Shown: in pieces, positions 35,518 through 45,914 of the stretch
How the letters are laid out: each line of letters opens with the position of its first letter
Numbering within the stretch: the first letter of the stretch is position 1
Assembly (NCBI GenBank): GCA_017445925.1
Contig: JAFSRW010000075.1
Location: forward strand, 1 to 50,009
Length of the DNA: 50,009 nt
Origin: Bacteroidaceae bacterium
GTDB lineage: Bacteria > Bacteroidota > Bacteroidia > Bacteroidales > Bacteroidaceae
Direction: 5' to 3'
Made by a program: the position numbers and the translations under genes
Notes under the pieces: generated by a model
What the model saw: the letters and a program-made list of their open reading frames with translations, nothing else
What the model was told of the DNA's origin: nothing
Database searches by the model: none

Positions 35518-35567
35518 TTACACTTCTTTAGTTTCTGCAAAAATACAACATTTCTCGAAATATGCAA

Positions 35568-35670
35568 GTCTCCCAACATTTAAATCTTGTCTAAAAACCT
35601 TTCAATCTTGTCTGAAAATCAAAAAAAATGCCTAATCTGTTGTCGTATAGGCTTTTTTTTTTTATTTTTG
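35568..35670 (+). promoter_or_regulatory. Phased GTCTG promoter cassette, copy 1 (STAS gene)
   Basis: GTCT/GTCTG boxes start at 35568, 35589 and 35610, with a degenerate box (GCCTA) at 35630: steps of 21, 21 and 20 bp. They are followed by a hairpin with stem GCCTA/TAGGC (35630-35634 and 35649-35653), a ten-T run, then -7 box TATTTTTG (35663-35670). A -33 TTTG (35640-35643) sits in the hairpin loop with a 19-bp spacer. The block aligns over about 95 bp with 44573-44656. Confidence 0.75.
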
Positions 35671-35740
35671 TCCCATGCTAATGCTGAAAACAACAGCCAT
35701 GAAACGAGTAAAAAGGTTAAAATGTTAATGATAAACGATT

Positions 35741-36043
35741 ATGAAAACAAAAATTGAAGAAATCGACGGCAAGTATGTTGCTACATTAGAAGGAGAAATG
35801 GATACTGCAGCCGCTATGGAAGTAGAGGAAATTTTGAAACCACTCTATCAGAGCAATGGAAAGGACGTAATCATCGACTGCACCAACCTAGAGTATATCG
35901 CATCCAGCGGACTGCGCATTCTCCTCTCCATTCTTAAAGATGCCAAAGCCAGCGGTAGCCGTGTAGTGCTGAGAAATGTCAACGAGGACATCAAGAATGT
36001 TTTTAGTCTGACAGGCTTTATTAACATCTTCGAGTTTGAATAA
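35741..36043 (+). CDS. STAS-domain protein (anti-sigma factor antagonist type)
   Basis: 100 residues, a single STAS domain of SpoIIAA/RsbV length. The conserved loop is DCTNLEYIASSGLRILL, with Ser55 (first Ser of SSG) at the position phosphorylated in SpoIIAA and RsbV; the usual Asp before it is Ala here. No RsbW-like kinase or PP2C phosphatase is nearby, so it acts with partners elsewhere or has another role. It is followed after 8 nt by a porin-like gene. Confidence 0.92.
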   Translation: MKTKIEEIDGKYVATLEGEMDTAAAMEVEEILKPLYQSNGKDVIIDCTNLEYIASSGLRILLSILKDAKASGSRVVLRNVNEDIKNVFSLTGFINIFEFE

Positions 36044-36123
36044 AATAAGGAATGGAAAATAATAATCCTACTACCGCAAGAGCAGCAAGAACCTTCCGAT
36101 GCGAAGGAAGAAGCATAGCTGTG

Positions 36124-37482
36124 ATGAAGCTATCCTTATTTGGAGCAGCCTTCATTCTTTCATTTTTTCATTTTTTCATTTTTACATCCTCTTGCTGGGC
36201 ACAGACAGATTCTACGAAGGCCAATAAACTGAGTATGGACTTGCAATTCCTGGCTCATGGAGAGATTTGTGCCGGTGGTTTGCCCAAGCCGCCCGTCAAC
36301 AACCCAGACAAGCCGGAAGCCGACTTATCGGCTTTCCTGTTAGGACGTACCCGCTTATCCCTGAACTACGAGCGCAACTGGCTGGAAGCAAAAATCACAT
36401 TGCAGAACAATGCTGTCTGGGGTATGCGCAACAACATGTCGGTGGATTTATACGAAGGATGGGTGAAGATGAAATCCAAGAACGGATTCTTCACTAAGAT
36501 AGGACGTGTAGCACTGTCTTACGACGACGAGCGTATCATTGGACCCAACGATTTTGCCACAGCATCTCTGTCGCACGATGTGGGTATGGTGGGATACGAA
36601 GGACACGGACACCAGATTCATGGTATATTCGCATTCAACCAGAATAGTGAAAATGTATATGAGGGTACCTATTATGATAATGGTTCACAGTACTATAAGA
36701 CTATGCAAACCGTGTGGTACCACTACGATTTTCCCAAGTTCCCATTGGGCGCGTCACTGCTCTTTATGAATATGGGCATTCAGGCTGGCGAGGAAGGAGA
36801 TACTCAAAATCCTCCATCCACCAAATACCAGCAGATGTGGGGTACTTACCTGAAGTATCACCCCAAATACCTCACACTGGAGGCTTCGTACTATCGGCAA
36901 ACGGGCAAAACGGTAAATGAAAAGAAACAATACAAGCCCATCAAGGCATGGATGGCCAGTGTGAAGGCTACCATCACACCCACGGACCATTATGGATTCC
37001 AACTGGGCTATGATTACCTGAGCGGCGATGACTTTGTGCCCGTCCCTTACGGCGGCACGGCGGGATTGCCCTTTCATGAGGTGCTGAAAGGCTTCTCGCC
37101 CCTCTACGGTTCACGCACCAAGTTCTACGGCATCCTGGACTTTTTCTACACCAGTGCCTACATCAACGGCTTCACTCCCGGTCTGCAAAATGTCTATGTC
37201 GGTGCCTTTGGCAACCCTTTACCCAAGATGCGACTTTCCGTCGATTACCATTATCTGGCGGTGGCTACCAACCTTTCTGGACTCAGCAACACTTTGGGAC
37301 ACAACATAGATTTCAATGCCGAATACGCATTCTCTAAGGATGTCTCTCTTTCGGTAAACTATTCCATGATGGCGGGAACAGAAACCATGACCCGGCTGAA
37401 ACAGGAAAATGGCAGTAAGTATGCTCACTGGGCATGGTTCTCACTGCTTGTATCTCCTACCCTTTTTACCACAAGATTCTGA
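36124..37482 (+). CDS. Porin-like outer-membrane protein
   Basis: About 452 residues from ATG 36124, where a signal peptide begins (MKLSLFGAAFILSFFHFF, ending CWAQ). AGGAAG lies about 14 nt upstream. ATG 36052 would add 24 polar residues before the signal and is less likely. The mature part is a beta-barrel with repeated aromatic girdles and a C-terminal Phe (TTRF). Its overall layout resembles alginate-export-type porins, but no family is certain. The stretch F-H-F-F-I-F in the signal peptide comes from a CATTTTTT tandem array (36159-36185). Confidence 0.82.
   Translation: MKLSLFGAAFILSFFHFFIFTSSCWAQTDSTKANKLSMDLQFLAHGEICAGGLPKPPVNNPDKPEADLSAFLLGRTRLSLNYERNWLEAKITLQNNAVWGMRNNMSVDLYEGWVKMKSKNGFFTKIGRVALSYDDERIIGPNDFATASLSHDVGMVGYEGHGHQIHGIFAFNQNSENVYEGTYYDNGSQYYKTMQTVWYHYDFPKFPLGASLLFMNMGIQAGEEGDTQNPPSTKYQQMWGTYLKYHPKYLTLEASYYRQTGKTVNEKKQYKPIKAWMASVKATITPTDHYGFQLGYDYLSGDDFVPVPYGGTAGLPFHEVLKGFSPLYGSRTKFYGILDFFYTSAYINGFTPGLQNVYVGAFGNPLPKMRLSVDYHYLAVATNLSGLSNTLGHNIDFNAEYAFSKDVSLSVNYSMMAGTETMTRLKQENGSKYAHWAWFSLLVSPTLFTTRF
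36159..36185. repeat. CATTTTTT array inside a signal-peptide sequence
   Basis: Units CATTCTTT, CATTTTTT, CATTTTTT and CATTTTTA are translated as the hydrophobic core of the porin signal peptide. Same family as 29483-29530. Confidence 0.65.
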
Positions 37483-37537
37483 ACACAACGATTCCAGAAT
37501 CTAATATAAAGAAATACTAACATAAAACATGGTAATT

Positions 37538-38704
37538 ATGAAAATTACAAAACTATGGATGCTTGCCGCCATTCTGACTTGCGGTATTGTACTGACAGCG
37601 TGTTCGAACAATGATGACCCTGTAGTACCGCCTACTGACAATGTGGAAGCACAGTTGCAGAAGATGACACTGCGCGAAAAGGTGGGACAGATGTTCTTTA
37701 TCCGTATGGAATCGCTCGACCCATCTATTGACTGGACAACATACGACGACTTGGCTAACATAAAGATTAAGGAAGTGACCGAGAATATGAAGGCCGTGAA
37801 CGAGAATTATCCCGTAGGCGGCATCATCCTCTATGCATGGAATATCGATAACGAAACGCAGTTGGCCCGTCTCATCCCGCAAGTACGCGCTCTGAACGGC
37901 AATCCGTTACTCTGTATCGACGAGGAAGGAGGTCGGGTGTCACGCATTGCCAACAATCCTAACTTCAATGTCAAAAAGTATGAGTCGATGGCTTCCATAG
38001 GTGCCACTGGCGACCCACGGAATGCATACGAATGCGGTAACACCATCGGTACTTACCTGCAACGTTACGGCTTCGATATCGACTTCGCTCCTGTGGCCGA
38101 CGTGAACACCAATCCTGAGAATGTCATCATTGGCCCCCGTGCCTTCAGCGATGATCCTGCTGTTGCTGCCCCCATGGTTACCAGTTACCTGCAAGGCCTG
38201 AAGGATGCAGGTATCACGGGATGTATCAAACACTTCCCCGGTCATGGCGACACGAAAGCCGACACGCACTATGGATATGCTTCTACTCAGAAAACATGGG
38301 AGGAAATGTTGAATTGCGAGATGGTTACCTTCAAGGCAGGCATACAATGGGGTTGTAAGCTGATTATGACGGCTCACATCGGTGCACCTAAGGTTACCGG
38401 TTCCGATGTACCCAGTACCATGTCGCCCATTATCCTGCAAGACAAACTGCGCGGTGAACTGGGCTATCAGAACATCATCATCACCGACGGCATGGAGATG
38501 GGTGCCATCACCCAGCAGTACACCAGTGCCGAAGCCGCAGTGGGCAGTATAAAGGCAGGCGTGGATATTGTGCTTGGCCCTCGCTACTTCACAGAGGCTT
38601 TCGATGCCGTAATGGATGCAGTTAACAACGGAACACTTAGCGAAGAGCGAATCAACCAGAGTGTACGCCGAATACTGAAACTCAGACAAGAGATGAAAAG
38701 ATAA
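37538..38704 (+). CDS. GH3 lipoprotein, NagZ-like beta-N-acetylhexosaminidase
   Basis: 388 residues from ATG 37538; ATG 37529 is possible and adds three residues. Lipobox LTAC with Cys22. Glycoside hydrolase family 3 barrel: KHFPGHGDTKADTH carries the NagZ-type Asp-His general acid/base dyad, and IITDGMEMGAI holds the probable catalytic Asp. The GH3 C-terminal domain is absent, as in NagZ. Expected to release terminal GlcNAc from muropeptides or host or dietary glycans at the cell surface or periplasm. Followed by a terminator. Confidence 0.9.
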   Translation: MKITKLWMLAAILTCGIVLTACSNNDDPVVPPTDNVEAQLQKMTLREKVGQMFFIRMESLDPSIDWTTYDDLANIKIKEVTENMKAVNENYPVGGIILYAWNIDNETQLARLIPQVRALNGNPLLCIDEEGGRVSRIANNPNFNVKKYESMASIGATGDPRNAYECGNTIGTYLQRYGFDIDFAPVADVNTNPENVIIGPRAFSDDPAVAAPMVTSYLQGLKDAGITGCIKHFPGHGDTKADTHYGYASTQKTWEEMLNCEMVTFKAGIQWGCKLIMTAHIGAPKVTGSDVPSTMSPIILQDKLRGELGYQNIIITDGMEMGAITQQYTSAEAAVGSIKAGVDIVLGPRYFTEAFDAVMDAVNNGTLSEERINQSVRRILKLRQEMKR

Positions 38705-38748
38705 CGGGAACAACAACTGTAAATAGTAAACTAAAATAATTGAAAGTG

Positions 38749-38783
38749 AACTGACCAGACATGGCCAGTTTACTTTTTTTTTG
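38749..38783 (+). terminator. Terminator after the GH3 gene
   Basis: Stem AACTG-A-CC/GG-C-CAGTT around a 6-nt loop, followed by TACT and nine T. Confidence 0.78.
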
Positions 38784-38833
38784 TAAAAACGCATTTTTTT
38801 TCTCTATTTTCATAAGAAAAGCAAAAAAGATAC

Positions 38834-38841
38834 TATATTTG
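38834..38841 (+). promoter_or_regulatory. -7 element of the giant surface-protein gene
   Basis: TATATTTG, 54 nt before the ATG. No TTTG at ideal distance. Confidence 0.5.
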
Positions 38842-38894
38842 CGTGCGAAAATAGTTAAATTAAATCTAAATATAAGAAACCTAACATTATTAAC

Positions 38895-41800
38895 ATGAAA
38901 CAAGGATTACTTTATCGGTTTTTCCTGACAGCACTGGTATGTCTGTTAGGAGTAAGTATGGCTATGGCTCAGGTACCTGAACCTACTGCTAAGTGGACTT
39001 TTGAGAACACCGAGGACCTGATGGCTCCCCAGATTGGCAGCTTGCCTCTGACACCCTGTCTGCTGGGCAGTTACTCCATCGCACCCTCGACCCTAAGTGA
39101 AACGGGCATTGTTACGGCAGACGGTCCCACAGCAGGCAGCAAGGCTATCTACGTGCCTAAAAAAGCTGCGCTGAAGGTTCCCCGTACCGAGGGTGCAGAG
39201 ACTTCTACAGCCTACACCATCATGATGGACATTATGGAGCCTGATGCAAACCCTTACAACGGCTTGCTCCAGATGGACGAAGCTAACAACAACGACGGTG
39301 ACCTATTTACCAACAAATATACTATTGGTATAGGCTCTATGGGCTACGCAGGCAATATTAAGGACAATACGTGGTATCGCGTGGTGTTCACCTACAACGA
39401 GAACAACCCTGCAGGCACACAAGCCAGACTCTATGTAAACGGCGTGAAGATAAAAGAGGGTGGTGCGAATATACGTCATCAGATGGCACCTTTTGGCTTC
39501 TATCTGCTCTGTGACGAGGATGGTGAAAAAATAGAATATACCTATCTGGCAGAAGCATCTCTCTGGGAGACACCTCTTACCGATCAGCAGGTAAGTGAAC
39601 TGGGTAGTGCTATTCCTGCTACAGTGTTGGAGATTGCAACAGCCGACGATTTGCGCAACTTTGCTCAGGCTATTAATCGTGGCGAAGACTTGAAAGGCGT
39701 GCTGACCTCCGACATCGATTTGGGTGGTTCTGCATGGGAAACTCCCATTGGTACCAACGAGAATAGCTTCTCTGGTAATTTTGACGGTCAGGGACACAAG
39801 ATTACGGGCTTCAATGCTACATGCGAGACTGACGGAGCCGGACTTTTTGGCGTAACAAACGGTGCGGTTATCAAGGACTTCAGCATCTACGGTACTCTTA
39901 AGGCAATCGCAGGTACTGGTTCTGGTGTGGTTGGCTATCCTACCGGCAGCAACATCTCGGGCATCCACTCTTATCTAGAGATTAGTGTTCCCGCAATGGA
40001 AGTGCATCATGTGGGGGGCGTTGTAGGCTCGGCTCGCGGTAGCAACACAATAACCGGCTGTACCTTCCACGGCTCTATGCAAGTAGCAGAGGGCAGCACC
40101 GATAACTTTGCCGGCATTGTGGCTTATCTGGGTGGCGATAAGGTACAGTTCTGTGCCAACTACGGAACTATCAGCTTCGATGACGTCAACTGTGCAGCAG
40201 GCGGCATCGCAGGTTATTGCAACAATACCGGCTCTTATGTGCAGAACTGTCTTAACATGGGTAAAGTCGTTTACACAAATGCTGAAGAAACGCCCAGCAA
40301 GGGTGGCGCCATCGTTGGTTGGCTGCGCACTCACGACGAGACCAAGATGACGGGTAACTGCTGGCTCGAAGGCAGCGCAACAGGTGCCGGTAAGGATGGC
40401 GGCAATGTAAAACTGACAACAGCATTCTGCTTTAATGAGGCACAGTATGCAAGCGGTGAGGTTTGCTATAACCTCAACGGCGACCAATCTGTCATCGGCT
40501 GGTATCAGACATTGCCTGGAGACAAGGAGCCCGTTCTCCTTGATTCCACTCACAAACAAGTTTATAAGAACGGACGTCTTCACTGTAATGGTGATCCCAG
40601 CGAAGACACAAGCTTTTCTAATGAGAATATAGGCACCACACAGGATGACCACCACATGGTAGACGGCTTCTGCGACTATTGCGGCCTCTTCTTCCCTGAT
40701 GGCTTAACACCCAATGCCGACGGCTTCTACGAACTTGCAAACGCAAGGCAGCTTGCTTGGTTCGAGCAAAAGGTCAACACTGGTGAACTTACTGCCAATG
40801 CCATCCTTACCGCCGACATCGATTTTGCAGTCCTCATGCCAGAAGGCGCAAATCCTGAGGAAACCCAGATTACCTGGACACCAATTGGCGACTGGGGGCA
40901 AACACGTGGTTTGGCCAATGCCGGCTATCAAGGTCACTTCGACGGACAGGGCCACACCATCAAGAACCTCAATGCCGCCGCAAAGCAGAACTTCTTTGGT
41001 CTGTTCGGTGTTATTTCTTCAAACGCCCTCATTGAAAACTTCACCATCTACGGTACCATTTCCACTATCTATCAGTACGCTGGCGGTGTTGCTGCTTATT
41101 CTCGCGACGCGAATCCCACCATCCGCAACGTCCATAGCTACGTGAACATCAACAACACTTGCGCTGGCGGCAGACAAGGCGGTATTCTGGGCTGTGCTTC
41201 TATCAACGACGCAAACTACCGTACTACCGTCGAGAACAGCATCTACTCCGGCACACTTGACGGCAACGATGCTGGTGGTGGCGGTAACTACGGCGGTATC
41301 GTAGGTTATGTGAACAACAGCAGTGCTAACCTCGTTGACATTACCAATTGTCTGTTCGATGGTAAAGTGGTGAACCTCAACGAGACACCTGGTGGCTGTA
41401 CCTTCGGCGGTGTCGTTGGATACAACAATGGCGGTAAGGTAACCATCAAGAACTGTCTGTCTATTGGTACGGTAAGTGCTGCAGAGAATAAGTACGGTCA
41501 GTTCTTCGGTGCCCTGAACGGCAACAACTCAACATTTGTGAACAGCTATTATGTTGGTGACTTTATTAATGGTGCATCAAGTGGTGGCAAGGCAAGTGGT
41601 ACTGTACCTGGAAAGGTTGATGATGCACAACTGGCCAGCGGTGAAATTACTTGGATGCTGAACGAGGAGGAATTCCTGGATGCTGTTTGGCGTCAGGACA
41701 TTGGCTATGATGATTATCCACTTCCCACAAGTGTTGGCGCCTTTGTCTATCTGTCTCCTGACGGTTATGCAAGCGTCTCTGAAAGCAAACCTGAAACTTT

Positions 41801-44480
41801 TTACCCATTCCGTGATGCAGTCATTGCTATGGAGACAAACTTCATTGAGGATGACGAATTAGTGGCTTATCAGCCTTTGGTTGATGAATATAAAGAGACT
41901 ATCGAGTCTTGGGAGTCAATTGATAATATGAACGACTTCTTAGCAGCTTACAAGGCCGGTTTCAAGGTTAAGGAAGCTATCAATAAGTCTGCTGCCAGCT
42001 ATGCCGCTTACGCACAGGCTTGCGAGGAGACTGCCAACTATGTGAAGGATAATAGCCTGGAAGGTGAATATGCAGATTTCCTCGTAACTTATTTGGAGGA
42101 AACCGTCGAGCCTAACAACGACTATCCTAACGGTAGTGCTCCCTACATCATGGAGAACCGCAACTTGAACGATGAAAAGATTGTAGCCGAAATAGCCTTC
42201 ATAGATCAGATGCTGCAGAATGCCCTTGCAGGTGGCATAACTCCTGGTACCGAGATTACCCGTCTGATTGTTAATCCTAACTTCACAGAAGGCGAGGACA
42301 AGTTCGAAGGATGGACCAAGGAAGCTGGTGAGGGCGCAACCTTTGCTACTGGCGGTGTTCAGGAGATTATGAACATTGCCCGTGGTAAGGACGGCATTTT
42401 CGATATCAAGCAAACTGTAAGTGATTTGCAGAACGGTATCTATATGATGGCGCTGAACGGTTTGTTCCTTGATGGTCAGGACATCTACTCTCAGTTCTAT
42501 GCTGGCCAGCTTTATCTGAACGATACCTATAACTACTTTATGTCATCCAGCGAGGATATTATTACTGAGGCCGATGCCGTAGATCAGGTGAACTGTTTGC
42601 TCAGCGACGATGACAAATACATGGAGGATGAGGAACTGATAGGTTACGTTCCCTCTACCTTCAAGGGCTGCTCTTACGCTTACAATGCAGGTCGTTACCC
42701 CAACTTCTGTGCTACAGAAGTGACAGACGGTACGCTGACTATTGGTATGCGTAACCTTGGCGCAACGGGTAAAGGCGACTGGATGCCATTTGGTAATCTG
42801 CGTGTTTATTATCTGGGTAATGCCGATGAGGCTAACGAGAAGCTTGCTGAGGTATTGGAAGGCTTTGTTGCCCGTGCTCAGATTATTGTAGATTTTGAAA
42901 TTAGCGACGGATACGAGGATATTGAGAAGAAGCCTAATATCTCTGCTGAGCTGAAGGGACGTCTTATTGACGCTATAGCAGGTGCAGAAGAAGCTACTAC
43001 AGGCGAACTGAAGATGGCTCTCATCAATTCCTTCTCTGAGCTCTTTAATGAGGTTCATGCTTGCCGTAAGGCATATATCGCAATGGCTAAGGCTACTCAG
43101 ACTCTTTCTGATGCCATTAACGACCTGTTAGGCTTAGGCCTTATCACCGACGAGGAGTATACCCAATGGGATGCCGAAATCTATGAGGCTTTGGATCATT
43201 TTGTTAACGGAACTGTTTCTACCGAAGAAGCTCTTGCCATTGCAGAAAAACTGAACATCATGGATCAGATGATGCCTCAGGTTGATGGCGTATATCAGAT
43301 ATCTACAGCTAAGCAACTTAAGCTCTTCGCTATAACAGTTAATAACGGTAAGAATGAAGTCAGTGCAGTCTTGACAGCCGACATTGACCTTGCAGAACTG
43401 GCAACAGAGTCTGAAGAAGGGGAGACTCCTGCTGAATTAGATTTGGCTTGGACACCTATAGGCCTCTGGGGCAACAATAGTATTGCTTTCATGGGTCACT
43501 TCGACGGTCAGGGTCATACCATTAAGAACTTTAAGTCTTCTTCAACCCAGAACTTCTTTGGCCTGTTTGGTGTACTCTCTACAGGTTGTCTTATTGAGAA
43601 CTTTACCATCTATGGTGATATTGCCACAAACTTCCAATACACAGGTGGCGTTGCCGGTTACTCACGTGATACCGAAACCTTCATCCGTAATGTACACAGC
43701 TATGTGAACATCAATAACTCATGCGCTGGTGGCAGACAAGGCGGTATCTTGGGTACAGCACAGAATGGTAAGGCAACAGTTGAGAACTGTACTTATACTG
43801 GTACCCTTGACGGTAACGATGCTGGTGGTAGCGGTAACTATGGCGGTATCATTGGTTATGTTAACAACAGTGCTTCTGCCATTGCCATTATCAACAACTG
43901 TCTGTTCGATGGCCAGGTTGTTAACAACAATGCAGCTCCCGGGAACTGTACCTTTGGCGGTATCGTAGGATACAATAATTCTGGTACGGTTACCATCAAG
44001 AACTGCTTGTCTATCGGTACTGTCCGTTCTACCCGAGCTTCCCAGTTCTTTGGAGCCCTCAACGGAAACAACTCTACCTTCGAGAACAACTACTACTTAG
44101 GCGACAATATTAATGGTCCTGGTAGTGGTGGTACAGCTGCTGGTCCTGCTCCTGTTAAGGTAACAGAGGAACAGTTGGCAAGCGGCGAGGTTTGCTTCAA
44201 GCTGAATGGCGATGCTGAGATTCCTGCTTGGTATCAGAACCTTACTGGCGATGATAAGGATGCTTATCCTGTTCTTGATCCTACTCATAAGGTAGTTCTG
44301 TACGACGAGATCAACGGCTATCACAATGAGGGCGATGAAGATCCCGATGGCATTGGAAACGTTAACGTTAACGATAACGATAACCTCAATAATGCTGCCA
44401 TTTACAACATGGCAGGTCAGCGTTTGAGCAAGCCTCAGAAGGGAATCAACATTGTTAATGGAAAAAAGATTCTATTTTAA
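38895..44480 (+). CDS. Giant surface protein with LamG-like and GLUG-type repeats
   Basis: 1861 residues with a signal peptide (about 1-25, ending AMAQ). Order: LamG/concanavalin-like domain (about 30-235), a first GLUG-type beta-helix block (about 245-560, GHKITGFNA, GAGLFGV), and a second block (about 606-940). A helical central region follows (about 960-1450, with a galactose-binding-like part near 1115-1310), then a third block (about 1460-1795) closely similar to the second. An Asn/Asp/Val linker from a GTTAAC hexamer array (about 1821-1831) leads to a short C-terminal tail (YNMAGQRLSKPQKGINIV) of the kind found on secreted Bacteroidota proteins. Probable adhesin or glycan binder on the cell surface; no catalytic motif seen. 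Confidence 0.85.
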   Translation: MKQGLLYRFFLTALVCLLGVSMAMAQVPEPTAKWTFENTEDLMAPQIGSLPLTPCLLGSYSIAPSTLSETGIVTADGPTAGSKAIYVPKKAALKVPRTEGAETSTAYTIMMDIMEPDANPYNGLLQMDEANNNDGDLFTNKYTIGIGSMGYAGNIKDNTWYRVVFTYNENNPAGTQARLYVNGVKIKEGGANIRHQMAPFGFYLLCDEDGEKIEYTYLAEASLWETPLTDQQVSELGSAIPATVLEIATADDLRNFAQAINRGEDLKGVLTSDIDLGGSAWETPIGTNENSFSGNFDGQGHKITGFNATCETDGAGLFGVTNGAVIKDFSIYGTLKAIAGTGSGVVGYPTGSNISGIHSYLEISVPAMEVHHVGGVVGSARGSNTITGCTFHGSMQVAEGSTDNFAGIVAYLGGDKVQFCANYGTISFDDVNCAAGGIAGYCNNTGSYVQNCLNMGKVVYTNAEETPSKGGAIVGWLRTHDETKMTGNCWLEGSATGAGKDGGNVKLTTAFCFNEAQYASGEVCYNLNGDQSVIGWYQTLPGDKEPVLLDSTHKQVYKNGRLHCNGDPSEDTSFSNENIGTTQDDHHMVDGFCDYCGLFFPDGLTPNADGFYELANARQLAWFEQKVNTGELTANAILTADIDFAVLMPEGANPEETQITWTPIGDWGQTRGLANAGYQGHFDGQGHTIKNLNAAAKQNFFGLFGVISSNALIENFTIYGTISTIYQYAGGVAAYSRDANPTIRNVHSYVNINNTCAGGRQGGILGCASINDANYRTTVENSIYSGTLDGNDAGGGGNYGGIVGYVNNSSANLVDITNCLFDGKVVNLNETPGGCTFGGVVGYNNGGKVTIKNCLSIGTVSAAENKYGQFFGALNGNNSTFVNSYYVGDFINGASSGGKASGTVPGKVDDAQLASGEITWMLNEEEFLDAVWRQDIGYDDYPLPTSVGAFVYLSPDGYASVSESKPETFYPFRDAVIAMETNFIEDDELVAYQPLVDEYKETIESWESIDNMNDFLAAYKAGFKVKEAINKSAASYAAYAQACEETANYVKDNSLEGEYADFLVTYLEETVEPNNDYPNGSAPYIMENRNLNDEKIVAEIAFIDQMLQNALAGGITPGTEITRLIVNPNFTEGEDKFEGWTKEAGEGATFATGGVQEIMNIARGKDGIFDIKQTVSDLQNGIYMMALNGLFLDGQDIYSQFYAGQLYLNDTYNYFMSSSEDIITEADAVDQVNCLLSDDDKYMEDEELIGYVPSTFKGCSYAYNAGRYPNFCATEVTDGTLTIGMRNLGATGKGDWMPFGNLRVYYLGNADEANEKLAEVLEGFVARAQIIVDFEISDGYEDIEKKPNISAELKGRLIDAIAGAEEATTGELKMALINSFSELFNEVHACRKAYIAMAKATQTLSDAINDLLGLGLITDEEYTQWDAEIYEALDHFVNGTVSTEEALAIAEKLNIMDQMMPQVDGVYQISTAKQLKLFAITVNNGKNEVSAVLTADIDLAELATESEEGETPAELDLAWTPIGLWGNNSIAFMGHFDGQGHTIKNFKSSSTQNFFGLFGVLSTGCLIENFTIYGDIATNFQYTGGVAGYSRDTETFIRNVHSYVNINNSCAGGRQGGILGTAQNGKATVENCTYTGTLDGNDAGGSGNYGGIIGYVNNSASAIAIINNCLFDGQVVNNNAAPGNCTFGGIVGYNNSGTVTIKNCLSIGTVRSTRASQFFGALNGNNSTFENNYYLGDNINGPGSGGTAAGPAPVKVTEEQLASGEVCFKLNGDAEIPAWYQNLTGDDKDAYPVLDPTHKVVLYDEINGYHNEGDEDPDGIGNVNVNDNDNLNNAAIYNMAGQRLSKPQKGINIVNGKKILF
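40714..41713 (+). repeat. Duplicated GLUG block, first copy
   Basis: Encodes about 335 residues that align with 43275-44280 (shared YVNINN-CAGGRQGGILG, TLDGNDAGG, SQFFGALNGNNSTF-like stretches). Confidence 0.85.
43275..44280 (+). repeat. Duplicated GLUG block, second copy
   Basis: Partner of 40714-41713. The two copies are separated by about 1.5 kb of unrelated helical sequence. Confidence 0.85.
44358..44386. repeat. GTTAAC/GATAAC hexamer array in coding frame
   Basis: Units GTTAAC, GTTAAC, GATAAC, GATAAC are translated as alternating Val/Asp and Asn in the linker before the C-terminal tail of the giant protein. Confidence 0.8.
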
Positions 44481-44531
44481 CGATAACCGATTGAGAGTTG
44501 ACTTTGGTCAAACTTGACATGTTTCAATCTC

Positions 44532-44656
44532 GTCTGAAATTGTTTCAATTTCGTCTGAGGACTTTAAATATTGTCTGAAAACCTTTCAATTTTGTCTGAA
44601 ATCTGAAAAAAGTGTCTGTTCCGCCGTGGTGCAGACATTTTTTTTATGTATTTTTG
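44532..44656 (+). promoter_or_regulatory. Phased GTCTG promoter cassette, copy 2
   Basis: GTCTG boxes start at 44532, 44553, 44573, 44594 and 44614 (steps 21, 20, 21, 20 bp), each mostly preceded by TTTCAAT or TTTAAAT. The last box is in a hairpin with stem TGTCTG/CAGACA (44613-44618 and 44632-44637) and a T-run, followed by TATTTTTG (44649-44656). A -33 TTTG is not present. The hairpin with T-run can also terminate the giant gene. Confidence 0.75.
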
Positions 44657-44803: not shown

Positions 44804-44917
44804 ATGGGAAATGACTTTTATCATCGTAATGAACGTAACTACTACGGCTGTTTAGTCGGGCTGGTGGGAACGATAGCGATACTGTTGTACCTTATCATCA
44901 GCGCTTTATTCCATTGA
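44804..44917 (+). CDS. Putative 37-residue membrane peptide
   Basis: ATG 44804 to TGA 44917. A polar N-terminus with several Asn, Tyr and Arg (MGNDFYHRNERNYYG) is followed by one membrane helix (CLVGLVGTIAILLYLIISAL) and F-H at the end. The hydrophobic segment is clean and the composition unlike nearby shadow frames. The ribosome-binding site is weak, as is usual in this phylum. It lies downstream of the phased cassette and upstream of two lipoprotein genes. Function unknown. Confidence 0.55.
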   Translation: MGNDFYHRNERNYYGCLVGLVGTIAILLYLIISALFH

Positions 44918-44959
44918 GTATTCTATAGGTGATAATAAATATGATTAACCCAAAAATCG

Positions 44960-45025
44960 AAACTTGAAACTTGAAACATGGAACTTGAAACATGGAACTT
45001 GAAACATGGAACTTGAAACATAAAC
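44960..45025. repeat. TTGAAACATGGAAC tandem array before a start codon
   Basis: Units of about 15 bp (TTGAAACATGGAAC), preceded by a shorter TTGAAAC unit, end five bases before the LRR lipoprotein ATG. Confidence 0.8.
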
Positions 45026-45029
45026 CATT

Positions 45030-45914
45030 ATGAAAACAAACAAAATTTTTTCTCTGCTGGCCGCTATCATGATGGCTGCCATGTTTACAGCTTGTAGTAA
45101 CGACGACAATCCTGTCAAGCCATCGCTGGATAGGACGGATATCGACACCTGGAACGCAAGCACCAAGACGCTGACCGTGAACATCAATCCTTGGGAAAAT
45201 GCCTACTCCGATAACACGGAAATCCAGCACATCGTCTTCGCCGACAATGTGACAAACATCGGCAAAGCTGCCTTCGATGGCTGCGGGAACCTGGAATCGG
45301 TCACCTTTGCAGAAAACTCACAGTTGGAGACCATCAATGGTTGGGCATTTGGTTATTGTGGAAAACTGACCACGATTACCATCCCCGCCAGCGTAACCAC
45401 CCTTAAAGGTCCTGTCTTCACAGGCTCCGGTCTGCAGACCATTTTCTTTGAAGAGGGTTCCAGGCTGCAGACCATTGGTAATAATGCTTTCGACAACTCA
45501 GCCTTGACTGCGATTACCATCCCCGCCAGCGTGATTACCATCAATTTAACTGCCTTCAGTCGGTGCGCATACCTGTCTACGGTGAACTTTGAGGAGAACT
45601 CACAATTGGAAACTATCGACCATGGCGCCTTTATGGAGTGCTACGCACTGAAGAAGATTACCATCCCCGCCAGCGTGACCTTCATCGGCGACAATGCCTT
45701 CGATGAATGCCAAAACCTGTCAGTGATTAACATCCTTGCGCAGACACCGCCCAGCCTGGGCACTCATGCATTCGCACATACTGCCGAGGACTTCAAGATT
45801 TTCGTCCCCAAGGATTGTGTTGATGCATACAAGACAGCCTATCCCGACTTCGCAGACAGAATCAAGCCGATTATGGGCGACGACGTGACGGAAATCGATT
45901 CAATTGATAATTGA
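45030..45914 (+). CDS. BspA-like leucine-rich repeat lipoprotein
   Basis: 294 residues. Lipobox FTAC with Cys22, then S-N-D-D, an acidic sequence after the Cys typical of surface export in Bacteroidota. About six LRR_5/BspA repeats (units such as LTTITIPASVTTLKG and LKKITIPASVTFIGDNAF) occupy residues 65-270. Probable surface binding protein. The last codons (S-I-D-N) are translated from an ATTGATA array. Its signal sequence shares 44 identical bases with the next gene. Confidence 0.92.
   Translation: MKTNKIFSLLAAIMMAAMFTACSNDDNPVKPSLDRTDIDTWNASTKTLTVNINPWENAYSDNTEIQHIVFADNVTNIGKAAFDGCGNLESVTFAENSQLETINGWAFGYCGKLTTITIPASVTTLKGPVFTGSGLQTIFFEEGSRLQTIGNNAFDNSALTAITIPASVITINLTAFSRCAYLSTVNFEENSQLETIDHGAFMECYALKKITIPASVTFIGDNAFDECQNLSVINILAQTPPSLGTHAFAHTAEDFKIFVPKDCVDAYKTAYPDFADRIKPIMGDDVTEIDSIDN
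45067..45110 (+). repeat. 44-bp direct repeat, copy 1 (lipoprotein signal region)
   Basis: Identical to 45995-46038. Encodes M-M-A-A-M-F-T-A-C-S-N-D-D-N around the lipobox. Confidence 0.95.

Follow-up and report, generated by a model that had tools for sequence, protein, structure and literature searches.

Phased direct-repeat arrays as putative operators of membrane AraC-type regulators in a Bacteroidaceae bacterium and its relatives

Arrays of GTCT-containing boxes, repeated every 20-22 bp, lie mostly at fixed distances from Bacteroidetes-type promoters and often behind genes for putative membrane AraC-type proteins. Based on this sequence evidence they are probably the operator arrays of these proteins, which would act as one-component activators.

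Arrays in the window and their genes

The window, by which is meant the whole stretch of 50,009 nucleotides analyzed here, is contig C33 of the source genome (G000, 83.7% complete). It carries two arrays, at 35567-35670 and 44531-44656, both of which are intergenic and consist of GTCTG-type direct repeats followed by an A-run, a hairpin, a T-run and a Bacteroidetes -7 box. The array elements and genes of the window described below are on the + strand. In array 1, operator boxes 1 (AGTCT at 35567, degenerate and identified by eye) and 2 (TGTCT at 35588) occupy 35567..35592, and box 3 (TGTCT) is at 35609..35613. The proximal box TGCCT (35629), together with the hairpin GCCTA...TAGGC (RNAfold, inverted repeat), covers 35629..35652, and a T-run comes next. 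This array matches the typical layout, with a TTG of the -33 type (35640..35642) at +11 bp from the TGCCT box, in the hairpin loop, and the -7 box TATTTTTG (35663..35670) 23 bp beyond the TTG and 54 bp past box 3. Array 2 has boxes 1 to 4 at 44531..44597 (starts 44531, 44552, 44572 and 44593), followed by the proximal box TGTCT (44613), the hairpin TGTCTG...CAGACA (both within 44613..44637; RNAfold) and then a T-run. Its -7 box, again TATTTTTG, is kept at 44649..44656, 36 bp past the proximal box and 56 bp past box 4, but CCG stands instead of TTG at the -33 position.

The steps between boxes are 21, 21 and 20 bp in array 1 and 21, 20, 21 and 20 bp in array 2, the last of the four and five boxes, respectively, being the 5' arm of the hairpin. 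The two regions align without gaps over 91 nt (35579-35669 and 44563-44653) with 76% identity. Allowing up to two mismatches, eight matches to TTTCAATNTNGTCTGA were found in the window, six of them within the two arrays, compared with a mean of 0.51 and a maximum of 3 in 100 shuffles. The original prediction of two aligned GTCTG arrays with 20-21-bp steps, four boxes (one degenerate) in one and five in the other, is therefore confirmed by sequence, and box steps of this size next to a promoter bear out the phasing to one DNA face that it proposed. A search of the whole window against Rfam at gathering thresholds returned two tRNAs and nothing else. A coding repeat was also considered, the 21-bp unit being open in one frame, and was rejected because the 20-bp steps disrupt the reading frame.

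The first gene past array 1 encodes a STAS anti-sigma-factor antagonist (35741..36043; PF01740, 1.3e-17; TIGR00377). Genes for an outer-membrane porin-like protein (36052..37482; weak Alginate_exp match, below cut-off) and a glycoside hydrolase family 3 (GH3) protein (37529..38704; PF00933, 2.4e-72) follow. A 1861-aa protein with a LamG-like domain and a secreted-looking N terminus is encoded 5' of array 2 (38895..44480; PF13385, 2.6e-06). The first open reading frame past array 2 specifies a 37-aa membrane peptide (44804..44917; identified by sequence, no NCBIfam match), and beyond it is the gene for a BspA-type leucine-rich-repeat protein with a lipoprotein-like N terminus (45030..45914; PF13306, 1.9e-48). 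A tandem repeat of the AACTTGAAACATGG type, with 14-bp steps, lies at 44947-45035 of the window, just 5' of the BspA-type gene.

Distribution of the arrays

The two window arrays are not unique. At least two more arrays are present in the same genome, one with six units and a hairpin arm behind a 'smalltalk' peptide gene (G000:C64:265-440) and one on the minus strand of contig C75 (G000:C75:893-965), and others occur in relatives. A duplicated cassette, as originally described, is therefore rejected: the window copies belong to a larger set of arrays found in this genome and in related ones. A similarity search of 139 genomes of the genus gave convincing arrays in G330, G389, G152, G378, G377, G331, G379 and G384. 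Model R1, built on the sequence of the distal unit and run under strict filters on the same 139 genomes, scored above 40 bits only in G000, G330, G152, G389, G377 and G378 among the matches listed. At E <= 0.01 some match was obtained in at least 108 of the 139; most were weak, and these were taken for A/T-rich terminators with a -7 box and left out of the counts.

A pattern scan of a collection of named genomes yielded 26 stretches, 12 of them from assemblies labelled Prevotella or Bacteroidales; 18 of the 26 were inspected. The Prevotella- and Bacteroidales-labelled assemblies are titled as coming from sheep and goat stomachs or as RUG bins. One stretch from the scan (L067, Crocinitomicaceae) has a longer tandem repeat of its own kind, and several others look like chance. 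When 301 genomes of the family were searched for three exact boxes, seven matched, the other six with unrelated-looking repeats. Another repeat of about 21-22 bp, palindromic and of the AAGTACACGTACTT type, was seen near the arrays of L030 and L103 (G331, G369).

Distal arrays precede genes of several kinds elsewhere. The STAS gene that follows array 1 in G000 has this array in front of it in G330 as well. A SpoIIE/STAS/porin/NRPS run lies downstream of the distal array in G389, a similar SpoIIE/STAS/NRPS run (last two genes named by eye) follows that in G152, and an NRPS gene follows that in L081. The arrays in L062, L072 and L079 precede genes for proteins with secreted-looking N termini, while lipoprotein-like N termini were noted downstream in L068 and in a 47-aa open reading frame of G330:C80. 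Similar membrane peptides of about 60-70 aa are encoded directly 3' of arrays in G384 (L088 4826-5023), G310 (L106), G010 (L117) and G316 (L127 1319-1582); the one copy scanned (L088) had no match in Pfam or NCBIfam. Pairs of genes resembling those for MNT-type nucleotidyltransferases and HEPN proteins (by eye) adjoin the arrays of G316:C140 (L127 469-1208) and G330:C80 (L208 ~650-1370).

Gene order breaks at arrays (window 38707; G330:C63, L090 13235-13324; G000:C64:651). Past the GH3 gene, G330 has an array and, beyond it, an aldehyde-dehydrogenase-like region, and in G000 that region follows the C64 array; the surface-protein genes between the GH3 gene and this region are either missing in G330 or inserted in G000.

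A candidate regulator

About 430 bp separate the start of the C75 array from the stop codon of the gene before it, which encodes a 555-aa protein combining TPR repeats with an AraC-type domain and, judged by eye, a transmembrane segment; the candidate repeats for this protein are TTTCAATCTTGTCTGA. Proteins of this kind, putatively membrane-bound, AraC-type and often encoded ahead of an array, are candidates for the 'unknown regulator' of the original prediction. In four such regulators scanned, PF12833, the C-terminal AraC-type double helix-turn-helix domain, was above cut-off in every case, and relatives in the PDB are AraC, SoxS, Rns, ToxT and MarA. Pfam TPR families were found in two of the four (TPR_12 in L093, from G000, and in L070); the sensor halves of L088 and L089 had no TPR and no family match in Pfam.

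Homologues of the 555-aa protein are present in 32 of the 139 genomes of the genus (E <= 1e-20), and close ones (at least 45% identity over the matched stretch) in 10, an N-terminal fragment in G403 being uncounted. The set of 30 homologues used here derives from 37 regulator matches, 30 with loci, from which L118 (an N-terminal fragment) was dropped and to which L070 was added; one of the seven matches without a locus, G000:C19, was inspected separately. A pair of [CT]GTC[CT] boxes 20-23 bp apart was found within 500 bp past the stop codon in 18 of the 30, compared with a mean of 0.6 and a maximum of 4 in 200 runs of first-order Markov resampling. Excluding the four regulators first met via their arrays, the pair was behind 15 of 26. 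By comparison, it was behind none of 12 other AraC-domain genes of G000; one of these scores under the Pfam cut-off, and another, C19, is distantly related to the regulator. Box spacings of 20, 21 and 22 bp were seen in 9, 7 and 13 loci and those of 41, 42 and 43 bp in 4, 10 and 5, and every other spacing from 8 to 60 bp in at most two loci each; this distribution serves as an internal control. As background, the window and 13 loci were cut into 734 tiles of 500 bp, of which 37, known arrays included, had a pair at 20-23 bp.

The other 12 regulators had no pair within 500 bp; some have different direct repeats, variant boxes (as G379) or arrays farther off. At G378:C18 and G417:C13, which at first seemed to lack arrays, these are located about 1.8 kb and 3 kb downstream of the regulator. 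Four close regulators were newly found, and only that at G422:C62 has an array within 700 bp. Sixteen genomes other than G000 were picked up by the array searches (G330, G389, G152, G378, G377, G331, G379, G384, the genome of L070, and G418-G424). A close regulator is present in nine of them, with an array directly behind it in three, and was not found in G152, G377, G331, G389, G418, G420 and G424. Several of the genomes in which it was not found are incomplete, but G152, at 90%, is not easily excused. These seven genomes count against the operator reading, as do the 12 regulators with no nearby pair and the three newly found close ones with no array within 700 bp.

Two further sequences related to the regulator were seen in G000. 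One is the remnant of a regulator gene of this class (G000:C64:4257-4427, L092), in which an internal deletion has fused an N terminus resembling that of the G384 regulator, with the frame kept, to the final residues of the AraC domain; it has no array directly behind it. The distant relative on C19 (L195, L210), cut by the contig end, is directly followed by four GGACAAA boxes with steps of 20, 20 and 21 bp (by eye). These have the GTCC core in the opposite orientation, and similar boxes lie behind regulators in G038 and G385.

Position of the promoter

The Bacteroidetes promoter consensus given in PMC7366714 has TAnnTTTG at -7 and TTTG near -33. By sequence, a -7 box and a -33-like element of this primary-sigma type are present at fixed distances from most of the arrays. 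Of 19 regulator-type arrays, 13 have a -7 box that begins exactly 34 bp past the start of the last box (mean 0.02, maximum 1 in 2000 resamplings), and 13 have a TTG that begins exactly 11 bp past that point (resampled mean 0.56, maximum 5). The 19 comprise 17 of the 18 paired-box loci (G319 was left out), G379 and G316:C140, the last having no regulator just upstream and an array that precedes a similar small membrane peptide. Proximal and last boxes were set by hand for the spacing counts and for the hairpin folds; with the last box chosen by script alone, the -7 box was at 34 bp in 10 of 18 regulator-type arrays. The arrays of G000:C75 and G330:C76 are shifted by one turn, with 22 bp to the TTG and CAACTTTG as the -7 box. 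Behind the more distant regulator of G419:C121, also newly found, an array with the 11/34 spacing is clearly visible by eye.

In 14 of 19 distal arrays (G389_C39b excluded) TA..TT[TC]G occurs 54-56 bp past the last box, which becomes 34-36 bp if the hairpin arm is counted as the last box (resampled sequence: mean 0.09, maximum 3), and 12 of 19 have TTG at 30-33 bp. The -7 box was absent in five of the 19: G330_C63gh3, G389_C39a, G378, G331 and RGIG2655. Of these, G389_C39a and G330_C63gh3 consist of the array and a terminator-like hairpin only. Both observations speak against the operator reading.

The spacing from box to promoter is the conserved feature, rather than the hairpin. L062 and L072 each have a terminator-like hairpin (by eye) 5' of the array and none on the box arm 3' of it, while the -7 box stays in place; the array therefore goes with the promoter.

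The hairpin

The 5' arm of the hairpin is the proximal box and its loop falls at the -33 position. Folding of 46 nt with RNAfold gave -7.1 kcal/mol for array 1 and -17.0 kcal/mol for array 2, both on the box arm. The two window copies have the stable hairpin and T-run of an intrinsic terminator by sequence, and we read the element as a putative terminator of the upstream gene which overlaps the next promoter. Across 14 aligned distal units, 80% of the cells of the six-pair stem are paired, versus 31-44% when the arms are slid. The compensatory change originally noted between the two window stems extends to this set, where the covariation score of the stem was 0.405 versus 0.211 for shuffled alignments (none of 500 reached it), with 11 double-changed cells. 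The number of stem pairs showing a double change, four, was within the shuffles (120 of 500).

Among 14 promoter-bearing distal copies the box-arm stem is present in eight, weak in one and absent in five, so the outcome named beforehand as speaking against the original prediction, a hairpin that is not kept in other copies, does occur. The hairpin as the defining feature was rejected because the promoter spacing is kept where it is absent. What stands of the proposed unit of terminator, operator array and promoter is a phased array beside a promoter and a terminator-like hairpin that covaries; the hairpin is optional.

Box sequence and DNA-binding domain

Within the boxes GTCT is nearly constant and the preceding half varies (TTTCAATCTT, CTACCAATCTT, CGTAAATCT, CGTCCGAATCT, GACCATTT and others), box types among the regulators including TTTCAATCTTGTCTG and CGTAAATCTGTCTG. 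For 18 regulators (17 paired-box loci and G379), similarity of the variable half was correlated with similarity of the DNA-binding domain (rho 0.47, p 0.0005). Four flanking segments gave rho values of 0.32 (p 0.001), 0.12 (p 0.12), 0.01 (p 0.43) and 0.18 (p 0.04); because two of them correlate too, common descent accounts for part of the relationship. Genus-wide, the exact double-box AATCTGTCTG had four matches in three genomes, beside regulators in G310 and G010, the third genome being G316. The double-box CATTTGTCT had three matches in three genomes, beside regulators in G313 and G391 and, in G354, with no regulator nearby.

Comparison with known systems and alternative explanations

In the AraC/XylS family, class II activators contact polymerase at the -33/-35 region. 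The proteins described here resemble E. coli AraC, SoxS, RhaS and MarA in their C-terminal HTH_18/AraC domain and in a putative site abutting the -33/-35 element, and differ in being apparently membrane-bound with a sensor half of their own, in their Bacteroidetes -33/-7 promoter and in having longer arrays. Predicted operators of the AraC-type hybrid two-component systems (HTCS) of Bacteroides are direct repeats of 12-16-bp sites with 5-9-bp spacers, that is 20-21 bp (PMC3878776). The HTCS described there share with the present system the AraC-type DNA-binding domain, 20-21-bp direct repeats, frequent location next to targets and occurrence in Bacteroidales, so the operator principle is known. 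Here, in contrast, arrays reach seven units and the putative targets seen are STAS/SpoIIE, NRPS and surface or secreted proteins, not susC/susD loci. Furthermore, Pfam (E <= 0.001) detected only HTH_18/HTH_AraC and TPR matches, and no histidine kinase or receiver domains, in the four regulators scanned, which are therefore not HTCS members. The region from TPR to membrane in L093 and L070 weakly resembles FimS of Porphyromonas gingivalis (NF053520 of NCBIfam, 29-32 bits versus a cut-off of 600), which is a histidine kinase by model name, whereas here the sensor joins the AraC domain directly. Among the literature matches listed, with subscription journals mostly outside them, no description of such a regulator or operator was found, nor were multi-unit arrays, the terminator overlap or this target set described in the literature covered. 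While 20-21-bp AraC-type direct repeats are already known, a membrane regulator class with multi-unit arrays seems to be new.

The arrays might be operators of another protein, such as a hybrid two-component AraC protein, a LytTR protein, considered for its period (LytTR-domain proteins bind paired LytTR boxes with a spacing of about 21 bp), or an AraC paralogue, the membrane AraC genes being merely frequent neighbours. The seven array-bearing genomes in which no close regulator was found and the 13 PF12833 matches in G000 favour this, as does the 20-21-bp period of the Bacteroides motifs (PMC3878776). It nevertheless seems unlikely, given that the pair is behind 18 of 30 homologues and none of 12 other AraC-domain genes of G000 (C19, the distant relative, among them), and that box half and DNA-binding domain co-vary. 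That co-variation, by which the box sequence shifts across species with the adjacent regulator, also argues against a MITE-like mobile repeat with a minisatellite, spreading and expanding as DNA with promoters only incidental. BrickBuilt of P. gingivalis, which is MITE-like and carries promoters along with a 23-nt direct repeat (PMC4596501), provides the precedent. Like the arrays, it occurs in a Bacteroidales genome, lies between genes and joins short direct repeats to promoter elements; the arrays are also dispersed, intergenic and variable in unit number, and gene order at them differs between G000 and G330. However, the terminal inverted repeats and the leader and tail segments described for BrickBuilt in PMC4596501 were not seen around the window copies. 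Apart from the hairpin, a search there for inverted repeats of at least 10 nt gave A/T-run matches and some short pairs rich in AT, none of them convincing as terminal repeats. With the promoter spacing fixed and array 1 keeping its place at the STAS gene in both G000 and G330, we regard a mobile repeat as quite improbable.

Scarcely credible is a passive by-product of slipped-strand expansion, in which a terminator's 5' arm and the A-rich flank beside it were multiplied without any regulator. The unit does resemble that flank and arm, some copies (G389_C39a) are array and hairpin only, and the unit number varies as expected from slippage, a point which counts against the operator reading. On the other hand, L062, L072 and L068 keep the promoter spacing without a box-arm hairpin, the repeat spacing holds at 20-22 bp although box sequences differ, and the link to regulator genes would be left unexplained.

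Proposed mechanism and significance

Recognition by membrane AraC-type activators thus remains the probable function of the arrays. Beginning with a signal or lipobox-like N terminus, the regulator would consist of a sensor half (made of TPR repeats in the G000 form), a single transmembrane helix and, in the cytoplasm, an AraC-type (HTH_18) domain for DNA binding. One subunit may occupy each 20-22-bp unit, so that bound subunits would stack on one helix face. The typical proximal box, 11 bp before the TTG (-33) and 34 bp before TAnnTTTG (-7), would put a subunit where a class II activator contacts RNA polymerase, and this position suggests activation rather than repression. In the window copies the proximal box doubles as the 5' arm of the terminator-like hairpin with the loop at -33, so that upstream termination and downstream initiation would be packed together.

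A more far-reaching proposal is that terminator, operator and promoter form one combined switch, controlled by membrane one-component AraC regulators of a new class. Since the proximal operator makes up the 5' arm and the -33 element the loop, transcription from upstream would contend with regulator binding for the same DNA. The downstream operon (surface-protein, partner-switch or NRPS) would start only with low read-through and an active sensor half, and array length would set the gain. We consider this possible, though doubtful.

If the operator reading is true, the arrays provide a readable code for a membrane regulator class in Prevotella-like ruminant bacteria. An array just behind the gene would reveal the box of its regulator, so that this box could be searched for to list the regulon, which here would include the STAS operon, SpoIIE/STAS and NRPS genes, and BspA-like and other surface proteins. 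The specificity of membrane AraC-type regulators would thereby become directly testable.
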